Assembly: GCA_018663035.1 (NCBI GenBank)
Contig: JABJEX010000041.1
Location: forward strand, 1-53,811
Direction: 5' to 3'
Source of the DNA: Porticoccaceae bacterium
GTDB lineage: Bacteria; Pseudomonadota; Gammaproteobacteria; Pseudomonadales; Porticoccaceae
DNA length: 53,811 nucleotides
Each line of letters starts with the position of its first letter. Position 1 is the stretch's first letter. Below, piece by piece: positions 2,044 through 5,170 of this stretch. A program made the translations under genes and the position numbers. The notes below the pieces were generated by a model. It had not been told where the DNA came from. It worked only from the letters and a program-made list of their open reading frames with translations, and did not search any database.

Positions 2044-2508
2044 TTACTCTGCATCAGTAGCAAGAGATCGGGACATCAATAGCGCGTTCTCGCGGCCATA
2101 CTCAGTCTTGTAATAATCTCTTCGCTCACCTACCTCGACAAAACCTCTCTGTTGGTAAAGCCTTATCGCCCGAAAATTTGACACCCGCACTTCAAGGTGC
2201 AGAACAGTAATTTCGGGGGCGAGAGAATCGATACCATGATCCAACAGTGCCGACCCCAACCCTTCGCCCTGATGTTGCGGATGGATCGCCAGATTATGGA
2301 CCTCTGCTTGATCCAATACAGAGCCTAATACCAAAAACCCAACCAGCCTAGTGTCGCAGATTAAAACAACGGTATCATGAATACTCTGCTCAAACTGCAG
2401 CTCGCTCCAGGGAGACTGAGAGGTAGCCTGCTCTATGGCCAGAACATCTGCTAGATCGTCGATCTGCATTGCACGAATAAACGCTTGCTGTTGGGGACAA
2501 ATACTCAA
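2044..2508 (-). CDS. rimI: [Ribosomal protein bS18]-alanine N-acetyltransferase RimI
   Basis: A GNAT-fold acetyltransferase of 154 residues. The acetyl-CoA loop is visible as 'HPQHQGEGLGSALL' (about residues 75-89), followed by 'VRVSNFRAIRLYQQRGF' and 'RRDYY', all typical of RimI. RimI acetylates the N-terminal alanine of ribosomal protein S18. The reading frame overlaps the upstream holD-like gene by four bases (TTGA), so translation probably starts at TTG. An ATG 13 codons later would cut into the first beta strand and is less likely. holD-rimI adjacency is also seen in E. coli. Confidence 0.9.
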   Translation of the reverse strand: MSICPQQQAFIRAMQIDDLADVLAIEQATSQSPWSELQFEQSIHDTVVLICDTRLVGFLVLGSVLDQAEVHNLAIHPQHQGEGLGSALLDHGIDSLAPEITVLHLEVRVSNFRAIRLYQQRGFVEVGERRDYYKTEYGRENALLMSRSLATDAE

Positions 2509-3302
2509 GAATCTACTTTATGAACCTGACGCTGGGGACTGAGAAAACGAATAGTCTGCCAGGCATCTCGCTTGCGCGCAGGTTGCTCAATCATTGAAGA
2601 CAACGATGGTACAAGTAATCCGATAACCTGACCAAAGACCTCAACCTGACCATTGGCCACTGCGGCCTGTTGATCCTTTGAAAGCAGCCAATCAGCGGCT
2701 GCATCACCCATCAGCAGTACATATTTTGCCGACTTACTGTCGACTCTAGCCTGAACCAGAGTGGTTAGAAACTCACGCACCTCAGTTTCATCGCCCGCCA
2801 TATTGGCGTAGGGAGGCCACTCAATCAGCTCCATCTGCGGCAGAGGCCCAGAACTCTGTCCCATAGCGGCTAGAATATTTCCCAACAGTAAAATCTGCTC
2901 TGGATCCGGTAGGCTGTCTTCGACTGAGCTGCACACTAGCAATTCGTCACTGGGCTGCCAAAGAGCAAACTTTAGCTCTATTGATGTAGCCACCTGGGAG
3001 GCGGCGGTAACGTCGGGCTTTTCGGAAATAGCCTCCGGCTTAGATATGTCAGGTAACTTGTCTTGCAAGCCTAAATTGACCAGCTCAGCCATAGATGCCT
3101 TCTGCACCTCATGGCTAGCCTGCGTCACCGCCAGTGGTGCTGTATCAGTCTTGGCTGACCCTGCATCCAGATTTGGCTGGCCGGTATCTCTGTCTTGGAT
3201 CTGAGAGACTTCATCGCGCTCAGAAGCCAGCGGCAAATCTTTGGGCACGTACTGCACTATGCCCAAAGTTTGTAAATACTGGTTTCTAAGCCCCTGTGAC
3301 AT
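2505..3302 (-). CDS. HolD-like protein, DNA polymerase III psi subunit with long linker
   Basis: The protein has 265 residues, against about 137 in E. coli psi. The N-terminus (about residues 4-20, 'LRNQYLQTLGIVQYVPKD') resembles the psi peptide that binds the DnaX clamp loader; E. coli has a comparable 'WQLQQLGITQW'. Residues about 24-110 are a low-complexity Asp/Ala/Lys/Gln-rich linker with no fold visible. Residues about 112-265 look like a compact alpha/beta domain (LLVCSSVED ... ILLLGNILAAMG ... YVLLMGDAAADWLL), as expected for the chi-binding psi core. Position directly before rimI supports the call. Psi links chi (holC is also in this window) to the clamp loader. The start overlaps the leuA stop by one base (TAATG). 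Confidence 0.7.
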   Translation of the reverse strand: MSQGLRNQYLQTLGIVQYVPKDLPLASERDEVSQIQDRDTGQPNLDAGSAKTDTAPLAVTQASHEVQKASMAELVNLGLQDKLPDISKPEAISEKPDVTAASQVATSIELKFALWQPSDELLVCSSVEDSLPDPEQILLLGNILAAMGQSSGPLPQMELIEWPPYANMAGDETEVREFLTTLVQARVDSKSAKYVLLMGDAAADWLLSKDQQAAVANGQVEVFGQVIGLLVPSLSSMIEQPARKRDAWQTIRFLSPQRQVHKVDS

Positions 3303-4849
3303 TAGATGCCACCAAGTTGCGGATGCAGCCGCCCTGGATTACGCATAAGGGTCAGCGCATTGAGATAGGCCTTGGCACTGGCTAACAGGATATCAGTGTC
3401 AGCGCCCTGCCCATTTATGATACGCCCGTCTTTCTCCAGTCGGACCGTGACCTCACCCTGCGAATCTGTACCCTGAGTCACAGCATTGACTGAATACAGT
3501 TGCAACTGGGTTTCGCTGTTGACCAGCTTTTCAATCGCTTTAAAGATCGCATCTACAGCACCGTCACCACTGGCTTCGGCGCTGTGCTCTACATTCTGAT
3601 AACGAACGCCAATCTTGGCTTGGGGAGACTGACCACTCTTTGAAAGCACTTCTAGATCTACCAGTGTCAGTGCATCGTCTTCGGTGCCCATTTGCACATC
3701 AGACACCAGCGCCTGCAGATCTTCATCGAAGATTTCACGCTTCTTATCAGCCAACTCTTTAAAGCGCACAAAGGCCTGATTAAATTCTTCTTTGCTTTCA
3801 AAGCTGATACCCAGTTCCTCTAGCCGTGATGCAAACGCGGCTCGGCCAGAGAGCTTGCCCAGTGACAGCTTGTTAGTGCTCCAACCAACATCCTCAGCTT
3901 TCATAATCTCGTAGGTTTCACGGAATTTTAAAATACCATCCTGATGAATGCCTGATTCATGGGCAAAGGCATTGGCACCCACAATCGCCTTGTTGGGCTG
4001 TACCGGAAAGCCTGTAATACTGGACACTAATCTTGAGGTCGGCACAATATGGACTGTGTCTATATTGGTGGTAACTGGGAATACATCCTTACGGGTGCGA
4101 ATCGCCATAACCAGCTCTTCAAGCGAGGCATTACCTGCCCGCTCACCCAGACCATTGATAGTGCATTCCACCTGTCTAGCGCCAGCCTGAACTGCACTGA
4201 GACTGTTGGCCACTGCCAAACCCAAATCGTTGTGACAGTGTACAGAGAAAATCGCGCGGTCGGCATTGGGTACCGTATTGAGCAAGCGCTTAATCATGGC
4301 GCCGTATTCACCGGGGTCAGAATAGCCCACCGTATCCGGGAGATTGATAGTTCGCGCACCGGCATTTATCACCGCTTCGGTGATGCGACACATAAAATCA
4401 AATTCAGTGCGGCTAGCGTCTTCCAGCGAAAACTCCACATCATCGATCAGGTTGCGTGCAATTTTCACCGCACCCACGGCCTGTTCCAGAACCTGGTCTG
4501 GCGCCATCTGTAACTTGTGCTTCATATGAATCGGCGAGGTGGCAATAAAGGTGTGGATTCGGCCAGCGCTAGCACCTTTAAGGGCCTCAGCTGCACGCTC
4601 TATATCGCCACTGATCGCCCTAGAAAGGCTACAGATTCGGCTCTGAGTTACGGTGTTGGCAATCGCCTGAACCGCTTCAAAATCTCCCTGACTGGAGATT
4701 GCAAAACCAGCCTCGATAACGTCCACGCGCATTTTCTCCAAGGCCTTGGCGATGCGCACTTTTTCGTCTTTGGTCATAGATGCGCCGGGGCTCTGCTCGC
4801 CGTCGCGCAACGTAGTATCAAATATGACTAATTTTTCTTTTGAGTCCAT
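3302..4849 (-). CDS. leuA: 2-Isopropylmalate synthase
   Basis: This 515-residue enzyme condenses acetyl-CoA with 2-oxoisovalerate, the first committed step of leucine synthesis. The catalytic HMGL-type TIM barrel opens with '[13 protein letters not shown]' (Arg15, Asp16), and the metal-binding '[13 protein letters not shown]' is present, followed by '[13 protein letters not shown]'. The C-terminal domain (about 385-515) is the LeuA dimer/allosteric domain that binds leucine. The length is normal for the bacterial long form. The gene heads a leuA-holD-rimI operon. Its leader carries a leucine attenuator (4897-5089), so expression should fall when leucine-charged tRNA is plentiful. Confidence 0.97.
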
Positions 4850-4896
4850 GGTGCTCTATTCCTGTTGGGACTAGCTGTGCTGAATAGCCCCTATTG

Positions 4897-5012
4897 TAAA
4901 ACGAATTGCGCCCCCGCGGGGACAAACTTTCAACTAGCGCTGTGCGCATTGAGATAGATTTTGGATGAGGTATAACGTAGTTGCCCCTCAGGGCAGGAGA
5001 AGCAGAACAACT
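4897..5012 (-). promoter_or_regulatory. leuA transcription attenuator (competing RNA hairpins)
   Basis: Read on the minus strand, the RNA can form mutually exclusive structures. Structure 1:2 pairs AGUUG (5008-5012) and GCCC with GGGC and CAACU (4979-4983), enclosing the leucine codons. Antiterminator 2:3 pairs GGGGCAAC (4980-4987) with GUUUGUCCCC (4918-4927). Terminator 3:4 pairs the GUCCCC arm with GGGGGCGC (4908-4915) and is followed by GUUUU (4898-4902). A ribosome stalled on Leu codons frees region 2 and allows readthrough. A ribosome at the stop codon covers region 2 and lets the terminator form. The pairings are seen in the sequence; the mechanism is inferred from classical leu/his/trp attenuators. 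Confidence 0.68.
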
Positions 5013-5089
5013 GATAGACAAGCAGCAACAGCCGGGCAGACGCCGGAGACAGTATCGATTTGCTGTAGTCTGTATTTGGAGAAATTCAT
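4988..5089 (-). CDS. leuA leader peptide with four consecutive Leu codons
   Basis: This is a 33-codon frame starting at ATG (5089-5087) and ending TGA (4990-4988). It ends 'CLSVVLLLLP', with codons CTA TCA GTT GTT CTG CTT CTC CTG CCC, so five of the last nine sense codons are leucine. It lies entirely inside the leuA leader, and its stop codon abuts the antiterminator segment GGGGCAAC. That is the geometry expected of an attenuation control peptide. The ribosome-binding site is weak. The rest of the peptide is unremarkable, as is usual for such peptides. Four Leu codons in a row next to the competing hairpins are the main support. Confidence 0.65.
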   Translation of the reverse strand: MNFSKYRLQQIDTVSGVCPAVAACLSVVLLLLP

Positions 5090-5170
5090 GCTGACATTCA
5101 AACAGTTTTTAAAGGCCTTGCCAAGACCATTTTTTCGCCCCTTAGAAAGCCAAAAAATGCATCACTGAAT

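Follow-up and report, generated by a model that had tools for sequence, protein, structure and literature searches.

In Gammaproteobacteria, the usual assumption is that amino-acid leader peptides work via a terminator, the enterobacteria have their leuL-type leucine attenuators, and Leu_leader is among the leader families of Rfam; OMG, in the name of a motif discussed below, stands for oligotrophic marine gammaproteobacteria. Ahead of leuA, an attenuator has been predicted in Shewanella (PMC2659441). In the Actinobacteria, the run of Leu codons in the LEU element is proposed to form pairs with the Shine-Dalgarno box of leuA; the authors of that work doubted control by a leader peptide and favoured a protein-binding site, since changes to the Leu codons are reported to leave regulation in Streptomyces unaffected (PMC1262725). 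In addition, the ilvB-OMG motif RNA contains an upstream ORF (uORF) rich in branched-chain amino acid codons and is a proposed attenuator (PMC10272879), and the trpL leader peptide of Sinorhizobium meliloti comes from a leaderless transcript that starts at its ATG (PMC7298713).

The DNA that concerns us here is a stretch of 53,811 nucleotides from a Porticoccaceae bacterium (the window, by which we mean that whole stretch), in which a minus-strand leuA is preceded by a short leucine-rich leader. By analogy, we think that this leader would work most like the actinobacterial LEU element: going by the portion of PMC1262725 used here, both have a leader ORF with a Leu run and a predicted stem between that run and the leuA Shine-Dalgarno, and no terminator is named there among the LEU parts. 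The LEU-type pairing is predicted in the window and is not general in its distant relatives. The two differ in phylum, and LEU has a pseudoknot, whereas the window has a hairpin over the leader stop codon, a further hairpin (P4) and a predicted leaderless start. With the leuL-type attenuators, and with the one predicted in Shewanella (PMC2659441), the window shares a Leu-codon leader peptide before leuA and a hairpin near its stop; unlike them, its family is without a conserved intrinsic terminator, the antiterminator is not predicted when the ribosome is stalled, and there is no relevant Rfam match. The ilvB-OMG motif (PMC10272879) resembles it in the uORF rich in branched-chain codons and, if OMG is read as above, in a similar host group, but stands upstream of ilvB rather than leuA, and neither the window nor 17 relatives gave a relevant Rfam match. 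The trpL leader (PMC7298713) is like ours in that a leader ORF transcript begins at its own ATG, which for the window is a prediction, and unlike ours in being alphaproteobacterial, responsive to tryptophan and part of a terminator-based attenuator.

That a leucine leader switch of some kind stands ahead of leuA is, we think, very likely. Our computations found a conserved leader in which the Leu codons are kept, a fixed promoter spacing, a stop-codon hairpin (P1), the P4 hairpin and, in the genus of the window, a predicted masking of the leuA start that is stronger than in recoded or foreign controls. We regard the leader as a variation on control by amino-acid leader peptides, with a putative output stage. 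Its interest is that the leader, the Leu codons and P1 are conserved across a marine family and in others and the terminator is not, which makes the output step testable. Were the Leu codons indeed to mask the leuA start, sensing and masking would lie on one RNA strand, as has been suggested for Actinobacteria, and the old actinobacterial LEU case would gain a comparison.

The leader family and its stop-codon hairpin

The features on which the argument begins are these:

5096 to 5124, minus strand: predicted leader promoter, TTGGCA (5124-5119), a 17-nt spacer and TTGAAT (5101-5096), with a TG-extended -10
4988 to 5089, minus strand: leader ORF of 33 codons ending in LSVVLLLLP, ATG at 5089 and stop TGA at 4990-4988
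4994 to 5005, minus strand: leucine control codons CTG CTT CTC CTG, then CCC; synonymous differences are enriched here relative to the preceding codons
4982 to 4995, minus strand: P1, UGCCC-UGAG-GGGCA, a hairpin that lies over the stop codon and is conserved more than any other part of the leader family, with compensatory variants

A sequence-only reading of this DNA had claimed a 33-residue control peptide ending in SVVLLLLP with four consecutive Leu codons, and this is borne out on the minus strand, where the frame from the ATG at 5089 encodes MNFSKYRLQQIDTVSGVCPAVAACLSVVLLLLP; it had also placed GGGGCAAC (4987-4980) directly against the leader stop, which is indeed where it lies. For a comparison with relatives, leuA matches were found in 104 of 112 genomes and 88 were taken as loci; altogether 168 loci and the window yielded 167 leuA starts (L167 and L168, with distant matches only, gave no LeuA start) and, once 19 duplicates had been set aside, 148 unique upstreams, 4 of which were too short for the leader scan. 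Among the best 80 of 571 relatives, the named ones that come nearest are Porticoccaceae and SAR92-clade genomes. When a leader is defined by at least three Leu in the last eight codons together with a hairpin over the stop codon, 74 of the 144 unique leuA upstreams have one, which is more than chance would give, since dinucleotide shuffles have one in 11 of 2880 cases and reverse complements in 1 of 144. On the Leu-codon leader peptide, which relatives retain, and on a hairpin at its stop codon with compensatory variants, the sequence-only reading is supported. Further away, the compensatory variants of P1 include CTGCC/GGCAG, TACTGC/GCAGTA, GACTGCC/GGCAGTC, GCTGCCC/GGGCAGC and CCTTCTGCCT/AGGCAGAAGG. 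A search at the level of the order gave matches in at least 288 of 293 genomes, and the 66 new upstreams obtained from a manual choice of 24 loci and 60 regions contained the leader in nine cases, all from other families.

At the gathering score, Rfam has no match in the window and, over 17 related loci, a single match to the unrelated cspA; at a permissive threshold the leader itself gives three matches, all far below the gathering score. The leader is part of a conserved family of leuA leaders to which no Rfam model gave a match. We found no description of it in the open-access literature, most subscription papers lying outside that search; Vitreschak et al. (2004) may treat related leaders. 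A pattern search allowing one mismatch found no second copy of the motif in the same genome, and ahead of ilvB (9135) no clear leucine leader was seen by eye and Rfam gave no relevant match in the ilvB upstream.

Are the Leu codons kept as Leu, or only as RNA? The definition used for the 74 leaders selects for Leu and therefore biases any analysis of synonymous share, so the Leu count was repeated without that selection in 47 genus upstreams picked by P1 alone, where Leu is present at codons -2 to -6 in 46, 45, 33, 32 and 34, and at codons -7 and -8 in only 2 and 1. In the Leu-selected sets, synonymous changes make up 54, 43, 19 and 100% of differing codon pairs at codons -6 to -3 in the genus and 53, 38, 57 and 74% in the other leaders, compared with 7-18% and 8-17%, respectively, at codons -12 to -7. 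At codons -5 and -4 many of the genus differences alter the amino acid, and we would read the whole pattern as a Leu run that is kept as Leu, with exceptions. Many leaders in the genus end in RGLLLLLP and then run into CTGCCCTGAGGGGCATCTATCGTTATACCTCAT nearly unchanged.

Some leaders have a shortened run. For example, it is reduced to RLLP in L008, L018, L110, L114, L117 and L118, genus members with mostly small genomes, in which P1, the leader ATG and the promoter spacing are all kept. P1 also persists in L125 and L134, where only one or two Leu codons remain, and because it outlasts a decayed Leu run we think that the hairpin may have a role of its own, apart from that run.

The promoter is the other fixed point of the leader. 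In the window, the predicted promoter ends 6 nt before the leader ATG, and 43 of 48 genus upstreams have a promoter with a 17-nt spacer (17 in all 43) that ends 6-7 nt before an in-frame leader ATG, with TTGGCA or TTGGTT in 27 of these and TTGAAT or TTAAAT in 33. The same geometry occurs at a background rate of 9.6% over 1428 ATGs of the 148 unique upstreams, a contrast that is slightly flattered, since several in-frame ATGs were available to the genus count. L013 and L123 share the geometry but fail the stop-codon pattern used in that count. With so short a distance from promoter to leader ATG, the leader ORF transcript is probably leaderless and would start on the A of that ATG or right next to it.

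A possible terminator, Rho site or second promoter

Between P1 and leuA lie two features that invite readings of their own:

4904 to 4928, minus strand: P3, the GC-rich hairpin called a terminator by the sequence-only reading; in the full fold its core has a probability of about 0.28
4893 to 4898, minus strand: TACAAT beside the U-run, either a conserved linker in the RNA or the candidate -10 of a second leuA promoter

The sequence-only reading had described a leucine attenuator with three pairings, a backward one (AGUUG with CAACU, plus GCCC with GGGC), a forward one with GUUUGUCCCC (4927-4918), and a GC-rich terminator hairpin followed by GUUUU that the forward pairing would destroy. All three can be drawn on paper, the hairpin being a CCCC-GCG-GGGG inverted repeat, some 60-90 nt past GGGGCAAC, with GUUUU at 4902-4898. 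Recast in classical terms, P1 would be 1:2, the pairing of GGGG with CCCC would be the antiterminator 2:3 and P3 would be the terminator 3:4, with stalling on the Leu codons favouring 2:3. An attenuator of leuA has, after all, been predicted in Shewanella (PMC2659441). The pairings are real, but the terminator by itself is not significant: a scan with a consensus terminator found one site in the window (4924-4909) against a mean of 0.5 in shuffles, and in the scan over the leaders the window's own candidate, a marginal terminator, scores 19.4, where a fifth of the shuffles reach 18.

A conserved intrinsic terminator was tried across the 74 leaders and rejected, the fractions of leaders and of shuffles at scores of 16, 18 and 20 being 34, 19 and 9% and 32, 20 and 12%. 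The first scan had an excess at low scores only (74% versus 42% at 14), which was P1 with a weak tail; with P1 excluded there is no excess at any threshold, and at a score of 10 the leaders fall at 27% against 36% in shuffles. P1 as a terminator in general was likewise rejected, its tail being G/C-rich in some leaders (L141, L143). That terminators other than P1 are no commoner than in shuffles counts against classical attenuation, as does the loss of P3, or the absence of a U-tract after it, in many leaders; indeed, L013 and L123 have a strong P3 without a U-tract. On the other side, L138 and L135, from one sister group, carry a long hairpin whose U-rich tail is better, and P3, where it is found (26 of 40 genus leaders), is CCC-first in all 26 and GGG-first in none of the 40. 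Because it is always CCC-first, P3 fits as a complement to the GGGG of P1.

The folding predictions cut both ways. In ribosome-free RNA that ends after P3, the 2:3 pairing of CCC with the P1 GGGG reaches 0.85 in the window and a mean of 0.76 over the 26 leaders, which speaks for classical attenuation. When the Leu codons are masked with segment 4 present, 2:3 drops to 0.01 in the window (mean 0.16) while P3 climbs from 0.10 to 0.77 (from 0.16 to 0.72 in the mean); in RNA that stops short of segment 4, the masked 2:3 value is 0.06 (mean 0.17). Since masking lowers 2:3 and raises P3, the predicted switch runs opposite to the classical model, unless kinetics dominate; kinetic trapping could rescue it. 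The claim that a forward pairing undoes the terminator is supported as regards the pairing in ribosome-free RNA and is not supported, in equilibrium folding, as regards the direction of the switch. In sum, the proposed terminator switch is partly supported, its terminator weakly so, and classical attenuation is, in our opinion, unlikely to be how this leader works.

A further point against it is that TACAAT is conserved better than the T-run beside it. TACAAT is present in 42 of 48 genus upstreams, and among 41 of them the preceding base is T in 28 and C in 11, which is less what one would expect of a U-tract than of an RNA linker or the -10 of a promoter. GTTT or GTTC mostly precedes it in leuA upstreams of the genus. 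A second promoter here may bypass the leader, and this counts against our preferred reading, given below: leuA might be transcribed mainly from its own TACAAT promoter (4898-4893), with the leader controlling a minor transcript or mostly making a small RNA or peptide. In keeping with such a promoter, TACAAT occurs also in groups that lack P3, several of which have, by eye, GACA 17 nt upstream; TAnnnT is seen at the same place in related genera, and L142, which is without a leader, keeps the downstream block (both again by eye). Most genus members, however, have no recognisable -35 by eye, and in many of them the P4 stem begins 1-2 nt after TACAAT, closer than a usual start site, its complementary arms making most sense if they are transcribed. 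The leader promoter and Leu codons are, moreover, strongly conserved themselves, and we consider it very unlikely that leuA depends mainly on TACAAT.

Transcription might also be stopped by Rho. Over 72 leaders, the 30 nt after P1 (about 4980-4950 in the window) contain 8% G and 25% C, the remaining sequence before leuA having 24% G and 21% C, and the segment GGGGCATCTATCGTTATACCTCAT is conserved in the genus. This C-rich, G-poor RNA would be exposed once the ribosome has left the leader stop, with termination before leuA as the result, and in leucine shortage a ribosome stalled on the Leu codons would remodel or shield the Rho segment. Leaders without terminators have been explained in this way in Actinobacteria, in the cys operons (PMC1262725). 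Set against this, Rho sites cannot be called from sequence with confidence, and a ribosome stalled upstream would not obviously shield a segment that lies after P1, and so we regard a Rho-dependent output as quite unlikely.

The leuA start and the Leu codons

Our preferred reading turns on a long-range helix and the hairpin beside it:

4994 to 5019, minus strand: 5' strand of the long-range helix, leader codons through the Leu run, pairing with 4864-4844
4844 to 4864, minus strand: 3' strand of the helix, comprising the leuA Shine-Dalgarno (AGGA, 4863-4860), spacer and start codon (AUGGAC), as folded
4867 to 4891, minus strand: P4, a hairpin GGGGCU/AGUCCC just upstream of the leuA Shine-Dalgarno, probability 0.99-1.00

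In this reading, transcription would begin at or next to the leader AUG, and the leader ORF would be translated as a leaderless message. With ample leucyl-tRNA, ribosomes would complete the leader and depart, and the vacated Leu-codon stretch would pair with the Shine-Dalgarno, spacer and start codon of leuA, closing it. With scarce leucyl-tRNA, a ribosome would stall on the Leu codons and the leuA start would be freed; holD and rimI, whose starts overlap the preceding stops, would be carried along by translational coupling, and P1 may act as a brake on the ribosome at the Leu codons. The stalling, the direction of control, the leaderless translation and the coupling to holD and rimI are steps that we infer, and as a whole, we give only slightly less than even chances to a leader-peptide switch that responds to leucine, governs leuA (and with it holD and rimI, going by operon structure) and acts by masking of the ribosome-binding site on a leaderless message.

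What does folding say of the masking? In a fold of the full 260 nt, from the leader ATG into leuA, the single pairs of the long-range helix have probabilities of 0.65-0.89, except for 0.29 at 5011-4850, and P1 and P4 flank this closing helix. The stability of the whole fold is not unusual (z 0.45, with 130 of 200 shuffles as good). Opening the leuA start in the window costs 9.0 kcal/mol, and 3.8 when the Leu run is masked as by a stalled ribosome. The folding, duplex and P4 tests were run on 72 of the 74 leaders (40 from the genus and 32 others), L031 and L041 having been dropped as chance matches, and over these the Leu-run mask lowers the opening cost by a mean of 2.59 kcal/mol versus -0.08 for control masks, with the larger drop in 58 of 72. 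By group, the drop is 3.29 in the genus, beating the control masks in 37 of 40, and 1.71 in the others (21 of 32).

Two kinds of control bear on whether this effect belongs to the natural sequences. In the genus, the natural 3.29 compares with 0.95 once the run has been recoded synonymously (the natural value being the larger in 33 of 40) and with 1.00 when the start regions come from relatives that have no leader (30 of 40). Outside the genus, the natural 1.71 compares with 0.46 for recoded leaders (23 of 32) and 0.68 for foreign start regions (20 of 32), and in the window itself the three values are 5.2 natural, 1.7 recoded and 0.4 with foreign start regions. When start regions were swapped among 23 genus representatives, the excess of own pairs had a p of 0.010 and the median own rank was 9 of 23, the window's own start region giving the largest effect of the 23.

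Plain duplex energies are less generous. Compared with synonymous recodings, the natural duplex is in the best tenth for 18 of 40 genus leaders and for 3 of 32 others, which is no signal outside the genus, and the window's duplex, with a rank of 0.41, is no better than its own recodings. Own pairs do better than other pairs in no more than 25 of 40 genus leaders and 16 of 32 others. In the duplex swap test at three levels of thinning, pooled p values are 0.0004, 0.017 and 0.001 (genus alone 0.05, 0.25 and 0.05; others 0.045, 0.078 and 0.037), and a control region, leuA codons 11-20, itself gives 0.0048 pooled and 0.004 in the genus. Hairpins of the P4 type are common: 35 of 72 leaders have one that scores at least 10, as do 10% of 576 shuffles, and their sequences are many and different.

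The masking has clear exceptions. In the genus, it is at most 0.2 kcal/mol in L008, L009, L012, L013, L018, L104, L119 and L124, all of which keep the leader and P1, and in two related genera it is small or negative (L141, L143 and L149; L154, L162, L164 and L166). In a held-out test on the nine leaders from other families, with the measure fixed beforehand, the masking is absent: the effect is 0.24 for natural leaders, -0.13 for recoded ones and 1.23 with foreign start regions, natural beating recoded in 7 of 9 and foreign start regions in only 3 of 9. Because masking is absent from these nine and weak in some relatives, the sensor would seem to be broad and the proposed output stage not. Either output stages differ by lineage, or the masking merely follows from the complementarity of Leu codons to purine-rich start regions, Leu codons and Shine-Dalgarno sites being complementary in a general way.

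Where does this leave the output stage? For the window species, we hold the modelled masking of the ribosome-binding site to be its main form with a confidence that stays a little below the halfway mark. A bolder version, in which the Leu codons of a leaderless uORF are both sensor and masking strand, and the whole would be a gammaproteobacterial translational attenuator that is independent of the LEU element and, by way of the overlapping genes, ties psi and the S18 acetyltransferase to the supply of leucyl-tRNA, is tentative, and we lean against it.

The leuA-holD-rimI string

The genes downstream of the leader are as follows:

3302 to 4849, minus strand: leuA, 2-isopropylmalate synthase, above the curated NCBIfam cut-off
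2505 to 3302, minus strand: holD-like gene (DNA polymerase III psi), overlapping leuA by 1 base
2044 to 2508, minus strand: rimI, overlapping holD by 4 bases

The tight string of leuA, holD and rimI that the sequence-only reading described is confirmed, the holD start overlapping the leuA stop and the rimI start overlapping the holD stop. Its view that shared transcription of these genes would be unusual is not supported: a RimI match lies within about 1.5 kb after leuA in all 123 loci with enough sequence, the window counted, and since 69 of these loci are without a leader (54 have one, by the Leu-rich ORF and stop-codon hairpin), what we see is an old gene order. The order leuA-RimI is found also in Marinobacter, Azotobacter and Thalassolituus, and the gene between leuA and rimI has a tblastn match to the window psi in 77 of 123 loci. 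The unusual part would be leucine control over leuA, holD and rimI; if it is true, levels of a DNA polymerase III subunit and of RimI would depend on the leucine supply via this gene string.

The identity of rimI is straightforward (TIGR01575, 102.8 bits against a curated NCBIfam cut-off of 86.4). That of holD takes more work, as the protein alone has no Pfam match at E 0.001 and no NCBIfam match at E 0.01, and a single-sequence search likewise found none for psi. The call of the middle gene as holD nevertheless finds support in a profile of 32 homologues, which reaches DNA polymerase III psi (3sxu_B, E 0.0015; 8giy_F, E 0.003; 1em8_B, E 0.56), in a match confined to a short C-terminal stretch at profile positions 228-260. 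The predicted fold has a mean pLDDT of 79.7 with a low-confidence middle; in a fold search against the PDB, uracil-DNA glycosylases are nearest to the model (E 9e-4), and psi is absent among the matches listed (the best 50 of 503). The protein is about twice as long as E. coli psi, which has 137-138 residues in PDB chains.

Two smaller observations concern leuA and its neighbours. In genomes G098-G111, which make up a genus (g14) of the family, LeuA-like matches are distant (26-31% identity) or lacking, and leuA itself may be missing there. In the window, the string ilvB-ilvN-pssA-leuA includes a gene of the tyrosine-phosphatase family (PF13350; 5998-6804, minus strand) between ilvN and pssA.
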